This document shows, one piece after another, positions 1 to 2,624 of a stretch of 5,178 nt of DNA. The stretch spans positions 1-5,178 of the forward strand of contig JAPUIN010000324.1 in assembly GCA_027297005.1 (NCBI GenBank), written 5' to 3'. Position numbers and translations under genes: made by a program. The notes beneath the pieces were generated by a model, which was given only the letters and a program-made list of their open reading frames with translations, was not told where the DNA came from and did not search any database. This DNA is from Acidobacteriota bacterium. GTDB taxonomy: Bacteria; Acidobacteriota; Polarisedimenticolia; Gp22-AA2. Each line of letters starts with the position of its first letter. The stretch's first letter is position 1.

Positions 1-638
1 TCGCCCTCGCGCCGTCGTTCACCGCCCTCTCGGCGGTGCGCGAGGCGATCTCGACAAGCCCTGTCCGGCTGGCCGCTCAGGATCTGTTCTGGGAGGGTGA
101 GGGGGCGTTCACGGGGGAGGTGTCCCCCACGATGCTGCAGGAACTCGGGGTGACGTATGCCCTCGTCGGCCATTCGGAACGGCGGGAGCATCTGGGCGAG
201 ACCGACCAGATGGTCAACCGCAAGGTGCTCGCCGCTCTCCGTGGGGACCTGCGTCCCGTGGTCTGCGTCGGCGAACAGGAGACGGCCCGCGCCTCCGGCC
301 GCGCCGCTTCCGTGGTCCGCGCTCAGGTCCTGCACGCGCTTCAAGGGGTCCTGCCGGCGAGCGCCGGTAAAATTGCGATCTCTTATGAACCGACCGGGGC
401 GATCGGGACGGGACAGGCCGCCTCGCTCGGCGACATCTCGGAGATGCACTCCTTAATCCGTGAGGCGATGAGTACAATCCTCGGGGACGCGGCCCGCGAG
501 GTCCGGGTTCTTTACGGCGGAAGCGTTTCGCCGTCGAACATCAAGGCTTTAATGGAGGCGCCCGGGATTGACGGCGTGCTGGTTGGCGGGGCATCGCTGC
601 GCGAGGCGGAGTTCACGCGGATCGCCGCTTACGGCTGA
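1..638 (+). CDS. tpiA: Triosephosphate isomerase, 5'-truncated by window edge
   Basis: Glycolytic and gluconeogenic enzyme that interconverts dihydroxyacetone phosphate and glyceraldehyde 3-phosphate in the cytoplasm. The reading frame is already open at base 3 (ALAPSFTALSAV...), so the GTG at 36 is an internal valine, not the start. About 211 residues are present; roughly 40, including the catalytic lysine of the NWKMN motif, lie upstream of the window. Visible family blocks are the GAFTGEVSP stretch, the catalytic histidine in GHSERR (His codon 171-173), the catalytic glutamate in YEP (codon 387-389), the loop-6 stretch AIGTG, and the phosphate-binding YGGSVSPSN and GVLVGGASL motifs near the C-terminus. 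The loop-6 hinge reads PTG instead of the usual PVW, and the far hinge QAA instead of KTA, which is unusual. The family is not in doubt. A pgk gene upstream would be typical but cannot be seen. Confidence 0.97.
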   Translation, partial: ALAPSFTALSAVREAISTSPVRLAAQDLFWEGEGAFTGEVSPTMLQELGVTYALVGHSERREHLGETDQMVNRKVLAALRGDLRPVVCVGEQETARASGRAASVVRAQVLHALQGVLPASAGKIAISYEPTGAIGTGQAASLGDISEMHSLIREAMSTILGDAAREVRVLYGGSVSPSNIKALMEAPGIDGVLVGGASLREAEFTRIAAYG

Positions 639-1661: not shown

Positions 1662-2624
1662 TCAGTGCGCCTGGGATTCGAGGAATCGTTCCACATCGAT
1701 GGCCGCCATGCAGCCGCTGCCGGCTGCGGTGACTGCCTGCCGGTAGACATGATCCTGACAGTCCCCGGCCGCAAAGACTCCCTCGACGCTCGTCCGGCTG
1801 CCTTCGTGGGTGATGATGTAGCCGGTCTTGTCCATCTCGATCTGGCCCTCGAAGATCGAGGTGTTCGGGATATGCCCGATCGCGACGAAGACGCCGTCGA
1901 GCTTCAGATCACGGACCGCTCCGGTTTTCGCGTCGCGGATCCGGATCCCCTCCACCCGTTCCTCCCCGAGAATCTCCTCCACCACGCTGTTCCAGGCGAA
2001 CTTCATCTTCTCGTTCTTGAGCGCCCGGTCCTGCATGATTTTTGAAGCGCGCAGCATGTCGCGGCGGTGAATGACGGTCACCCGGGTCGCAAACTTGGTC
2101 AGGAACAGCCCCTCCTCCATGGCCGAGTCTCCGCCGCCGACGACGGCGACCTCCTTCCCCTTGTAGAAGAATCCGTCGCAGGTGGCGGAGGTGGACAGAC
2201 CGTGTCCGAGGAGGCGTCGCTCGGACTCGAGACCGAGCAGGCGCGCCGACGCTCCCGACCCGATGATGAGGGTCCGTGTGAGGATCTGCTTCACCTTGTC
2301 GATCGTGATCCGGAACGGGCGGCGGGACAGTTCGGCCGACGTTGCCGATCCGGACAGGAACTCCGTCCCGAAACGGGCAGACTGCTCCCGCATGTTCTGG
2401 ATCAGCTCGGGGCCGAGGACTCCGTTGGGGAAACCGGGGTAGTTCTCGACGTCGGTGGTTAAACCGAGCTGACCGCCACTCTCGTGTCCGTCAATCAGCA
2501 GGGGGGCCAGGTTCGCCCGGGCCGCGTAAACAGCCGCGGTGAGACCGGCGCAACCCGAGCCGAGTATGATGACGTTACGCGGCTCCTCGGAACCGCTCCC
2601 TTCTTCTTGGGGGCGCGCTGTCAT
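1662..2624 (-). CDS. trxB: Thioredoxin reductase-family flavoprotein with SATC in place of CATC
   Basis: Low-molecular-weight thioredoxin reductase fold of 320 residues, close to the family's usual 310-320. In order: FAD-binding GSGCAG (22-27); ARANL (35-39); GGQL (50-53); ENYPGFP (60-66); the redox-centre region STSATCDGFFY (144-154); NADPH-binding GGGDSA (163-168) and HRRD (186-189), typical of NADPH preference; and the C-terminal FAD motif AAGDCQDHVYRQA (285-297) with AAGSGCMAA. Normally NADPH electrons pass through FAD to a Cys-X2-Cys disulfide and on to thioredoxin. Here the first cysteine is serine (Ser146, codon TCC at 2187-2189) and only Cys149 remains. The FAD loop carries Cys25 where proline is usual. 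Family membership is sure, but classical thioredoxin reductase activity is less so. The start is an ATG with GAGAGG 3 bases and AGGGAG 10 bases upstream. A promoter candidate precedes it, and a small acidic gene follows. Confidence 0.93.
   Translation of the reverse strand: MTARPQEEGSGSEEPRNVIILGSGCAGLTAAVYAARANLAPLLIDGHESGGQLGLTTDVENYPGFPNGVLGPELIQNMREQSARFGTEFLSGSATSAELSRRPFRITIDKVKQILTRTLIIGSGASARLLGLESERRLLGHGLSTSATCDGFFYKGKEVAVVGGGDSAMEEGLFLTKFATRVTVIHRRDMLRASKIMQDRALKNEKMKFAWNSVVEEILGEERVEGIRIRDAKTGAVRDLKLDGVFVAIGHIPNTSIFEGQIEMDKTGYIITHEGSRTSVEGVFAAGDCQDHVYRQAVTAAGSGCMAAIDVERFLESQAH

Follow-up and report, generated by a model that had tools for sequence, protein, structure and literature searches.

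A serine replacing the first CATC cysteine in an environmental thioredoxin reductase gene: very probably an isolated one-base change

The trxB gene of the window, by which we mean the whole 5,178-nucleotide stretch of DNA analysed here, encodes serine where every relative that we examined has the first cysteine of the redox-active CATC motif. This serine codon lies one base from the cysteine codon TGC, and the gene stands in a conserved locus. A first-pass annotation had pointed to SATC in place of CATC, and reading codon by codon bore out both the letters and the coordinates. Nucleotides 2187-2189 of the plus strand are GGA, which gives TCC (Ser146) on the coding strand, with G at base 2188; nucleotides 2178-2180 are GCA, which gives TGC (Cys149). 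The motif as a whole reads G-L-S-T-S-A-T-C-D-G-F-F, within a frame that is open from 2624 to 1662 (Table 1). We are strongly inclined to regard the gene as that of a normal NADPH-dependent TrxB carrying an isolated one-base change, whether this is an artefact of the sequence data or a mutation of recent origin. As a matter of judgement rather than computation, an error in sequencing or assembly is the probable source of the serine base, a recent point mutation confined to one strain is possible, and a fixed change is unlikely. Because no examined relative has serine, either of the first two is likelier than a new kind of enzyme. The main lesson for now is that an unusual catalytic residue seen on one contig calls for comparison with relatives and reads before any new mechanism is put forward.

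Table 1. Positions in the window of the features discussed in the text
Feature	Position	Strand	Basis or comparison
trxB, NADPH-dependent thioredoxin reductase, 320 aa	1662..2624	-	Open reading frame; TIGR01292 393 vs 343.45 bits; Pfam Pyr_redox_2
Codon TCC, Ser146 (first cysteine of CATC in relatives)	2187..2189	-	Cys in 118/118 other aligned homologues
Codon TGC, Cys149 (second cysteine of the pair; flavin-proximal, Cys138 in E. coli numbering)	2178..2180	-	Role from PMC12796991
Codon TCT, Ser82	2379..2381	-	Alignment; Ala in 118/118 other homologues
Codon GGG, Gly122	2259..2261	-	Alignment; Ala in 118/118 other homologues
Cys25 (GSGCAG), FAD motif of TrxB	2550-2552	-	In 30/30 aligned sequences
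Cys289 (GDC), FAD motif of TrxB	1758-1760	-	In 30/30 aligned sequences
TpiA hinge YEPTGAIGTG (in tpiA, 3-638)	384-413	+	Gly where others have Trp

By sequence, fold and locus the window gene is a TrxB, with its catalytic pair missing as written. The protein passed the curated cut-off of TIGR01292, the NCBIfam equivalog for thioredoxin-disulfide reductase, and it retains GSGCAG and GD together with both NADPH motifs, GGGxxAxE and VxxxHRRDxxRA (defined in PMC5627308), which are present as GGGDSAME and VTVIHRRDMLRA. The redox-active CxxC of NADPH-dependent TrxB enzymes is broken in the contig sequence. The predicted structure (mean pLDDT 77.3; residues 1-12, 48-71 and 289-299 under 50) had the TrxB fold, with TM scores by query length of 0.79 to 5uth and 1trb and 0.57 to 1f6m. 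Solved chains nearest by sequence were thioredoxin reductases, the top one scoring 338.3 bits against 92.8 bits for the top chain named as an FNR, and on these scores we rejected identity as a TrxR-like ferredoxin/flavodoxin NADP+ oxidoreductase (FNR). Enzymes of that kind share the general fold and are also without a complete cysteine pair (PMC10294844), but in the window protein one of the cysteines is retained and the residues around the motif are those of TrxB. We likewise rejected identity as FFTR or another non-NADPH thioredoxin reductase, in which the NADPH motifs are lost and CxxC is kept. FFTR and DvTRi resemble the window protein as TrxR-like flavoproteins serving thioredoxin, but both keep CxxC, and DvTRi is described as being without the NADPH motifs (PMC5627308); the window TrxB has the reverse pattern.

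Multiple searches bear on how isolated the serine is. First, among the best 120 of 8000 scored homologues, 119 had CATC and the lone SATC was the window itself. The nearest three of the matches listed (P0002 to P0004; 87-88% identity) all had CATC, and no other protein joined the window TrxB in its 90% cluster; a single contig, of 5178 bases, carries it. Named homologues among these matches included Acidobacteriota and Candidatus Polarisedimenticolia records, with a few other labels. An alignment of 119 sequences, from which the 434-residue P0020 was omitted (its aligned motif copy is also CATC), had cysteine at the first-cysteine column in all sequences except that of the window, and against this strict conservation Ser146 is a true deviation, taking the contig sequence as it stands. 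Second, CATC was present in 80/80 named-genome loci, these being the best 80 of 594 candidates encoding a relative. Third, we sampled 396 genomes from the phylum of the genome that holds L017, a Vicinamibacteria record; this is the probable phylum of the window, and the genomes closest to the window belong to it. TrxB matches at E<=1e-80 were found in 316 of the 396, and all 44 loci fetched from this phylum had CATC. Fourth, we limited the scoring of a further protein search to residues 141-180, where a matching serine would count in a sequence's favour; 113 of the 120 proteins listed (the best of ~8000) were new, and every one of the 113 had CATC. Finally, a serine DNA pattern, which covered TCY serine codons followed by DGFF only, gave no match in the 396 and 398 genomes sampled from two phyla, nor in 3 others. 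The corresponding cysteine pattern, a positive control confined to the closest class, was detected in 34 of the 41 genomes of that class.

The first-pass annotation had said that CATC in all close relatives would point to an error or an isolated mutation, and this is the distribution that we found. Of the explanations that it offered, a one-base error or isolated mutation fits best, with TCC one base from TGC and CATC in all relatives examined. Its other proposals, namely another relay, a new partner, or a role as an oxidase or ferredoxin/NADP-type flavoprotein, are unsupported in view of the TIGR01292 score, the NADPH motifs, the TrxB locus and the lack of any examined relative with serine. 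Comparisons of sequence, motifs and locus gave no support for conversion of the window TrxB to an FNR, an FFTR or an oxidase, and we found no mention of SATC in connection with thioredoxin reductase in the open-access literature searched. As a separate observation, two TrxB entries, P0020 (434 aa) and P0241 (415 aa), resemble assembly chimeras or internal duplications: P0241 contains the CATC stretch twice, and the insertion of P0020 in the alignment looks like repeated TrxB sequence.

L081 to L086, the six genomes closest to the window (69-75% identity), keep the gene neighbourhood, and each has one close TrxB, with CATC. On one side of trxB, secG, a 67-residue open reading frame and tRNA-Leu(gag) were each present in 6/6 genomes on the same side and in the same order, and tpiA was present in 5/6, the exception being L081, where the stretch ends after secG. 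On the other side, ygfZ was found in 5/6, cbiX in 4/6 and a menaquinone gene in 1/6; in L083, ygfZ lies directly beyond trxB, with no cbiX hit. The lower counts for tpiA, ygfZ, cbiX and the menaquinone gene arise partly because the genome stretches are short. At the first-cysteine region, five of the six genomes read ACC-TGC-GCC-ACC-TGC and one reads ACC-TGC-GCC-ACG-TGC. The window differs from the five by one base, within the first cysteine codon, and from the sixth by one synonymous base in addition. The 67-residue frame occupies 1447-1650 on the minus strand of the window, between tRNA-Leu(gag) and trxB; it has an acidic tail and no Pfam or NCBIfam match, and it adjoins trxB in all six genomes at 48-60% identity.

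In low-Mr thioredoxin reductases, the CxxC pair carries electrons from FAD to thioredoxin (PMC5627308). The ordinary enzyme of this uncultured and probably acidobacterial (Polarisedimenticolia-like) bacterium would pass electrons from NADPH to FAD, to a Cys146/Cys149 disulfide and on to thioredoxin; on the one contig analysed, a difference of one base puts serine at the first of these cysteines. If that base is correct, we would still expect a folded protein that binds both FAD and NADPH, but Cys149 would stand alone with no active-site disulfide, and NADPH-driven reduction of thioredoxin would for this reason be close to nil. Engineered variants provide the nearest comparison. PDB entry 1F6M is E. 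coli thioredoxin reductase C135S joined through Cys138 to Cys32 of TrxA C35S (PMC2896474), and the first-pass annotation was right that changing the first cysteine to serine in E. coli had trapped a mixed disulfide with thioredoxin. Like the window protein, this mutant has serine at the first position and keeps the second cysteine; unlike it, 1F6M is an engineered trap, and the window change is an unconfirmed one in an environmental contig. For the C135S variant of a cyanobacterial FFTR, only residual DTNB reactivity is reported (PMC12796991). By analogy, we would expect a protein with a real serine to fold and hold its flavin but to reduce thioredoxin barely or not at all. Were the serine both real and fixed, nature would have produced an equivalent of the classic C135S trap mutant, raising the question of how the bacterium manages without the TrxB disulfide.

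Two readings in which the serine is real and fixed, both very unlikely in our view, turn on the rest of the protein. In the first, the thioredoxin relay of the species is under relaxed selection, for example because of another reductase, and TrxB is starting to decay. The window protein carries two further changes, A82S and A122G, at columns that are otherwise invariant for alanine. Three of 123 near-invariant columns are thus broken in the window, a count shared with just one other sequence of the 119, P0077. The first-pass description of the other FAD and NADPH motifs as intact, and of the gene as not decaying, holds for GxGxxG, GGGxxAxE, HRRDxxRA and GD and for the clean frame, but it does not extend to these two altered positions. 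Substitutions private to the window also exceeded those private to P0002 with each of five outgroups (18:8, 15:7, 17:5, 14:7 and 16:10), an excess that could reflect relaxed selection; it was smaller against P0003 (15:13, 17:10, 17:9, 17:11 and 15:12) and P0004 (16:12, 15:11, 16:9, 14:11 and 16:13). A changed TpiA hinge, found on two contigs and described below, also favours this reading. Against it, the frame is clean and the NADPH motifs are kept, and the six column-unique residues of the window TrxB are a high but not an extreme count, with four of the 119 sequences higher (up to 9) and a median of 1.

Copy number weighs against decay as well. In the closest class, 36 of 41 genomes matched TrxB at E<=1e-50, with one locus each, and five had no match; by our reading of the table, 6 of the 316 phylum-sample genomes with a match had two or more at E<=1e-80. 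With one close TrxB locus per relative, an easy replacement reductase is not evident in the close relatives. Within the closest class, the TrxB match of G105 was only 37% identical. The TrxB of G205 (contig C41, 11633-12540) is split into two adjacent parts that lie in different open frames, as a frameshift or an error in the sequence would produce.

In the second reading, to which we give a slim chance, a naturally occurring TrxB with a single cysteine has become fixed in one species of acidobacteria, A82S and A122G having accompanied the serine; either electrons travel through Cys149 alone, via a mixed disulfide or a thiol, or the enzyme has ceased to serve thioredoxin.

Least probable of all, and hardly credible on the comparisons made here, is that the serine is real and the protein a functional single-cysteine flavoprotein, whether a mixed-disulfide or small-thiol reductase, an NADPH oxidase or a ferredoxin/flavodoxin-type reductase. 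Retention of Cys149 and of both NADPH motifs would suit such an enzyme, and TrxR-like FNRs without the CXXC pair do exist as a family (PMC10294844). According to the same paper, however, FNRs without the pair form whole clusters, whereas the serine occurs in no examined relative, and the bit scores of the solved chains and the weak reactivity of the cyanobacterial C135S variant also count against it. Cys25 and Cys289 were considered as replacement cysteines and rejected. Both are present in the six closest genomes and in all 30 aligned sequences, of which 29 have CATC, and cysteines common to CATC-bearing relatives are not replacements for a lost first cysteine. The other 38 of the 44 phylum loci do not have both extra cysteines; among these only L107 has GSGCAG, with GDV.

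The isolated one-base change in trxB that we favour shares the window with an unusual change in TpiA. The loop-6 hinge of TpiA is usually written PVW, and the window has PTG. Trp occupies the changed position in 119/120 other homologues and in 5/5 copies read from close genomes; the sole other TpiA with Gly is P0121, a full-length protein on a 1017-base contig that differs from the window protein at one other residue. Because PTG recurs on a second contig, possibly from the same sample, the hinge may have genuinely changed in this lineage. It does not look like a one-contig error, and this somewhat raises the chance that the TrxB serine is real.
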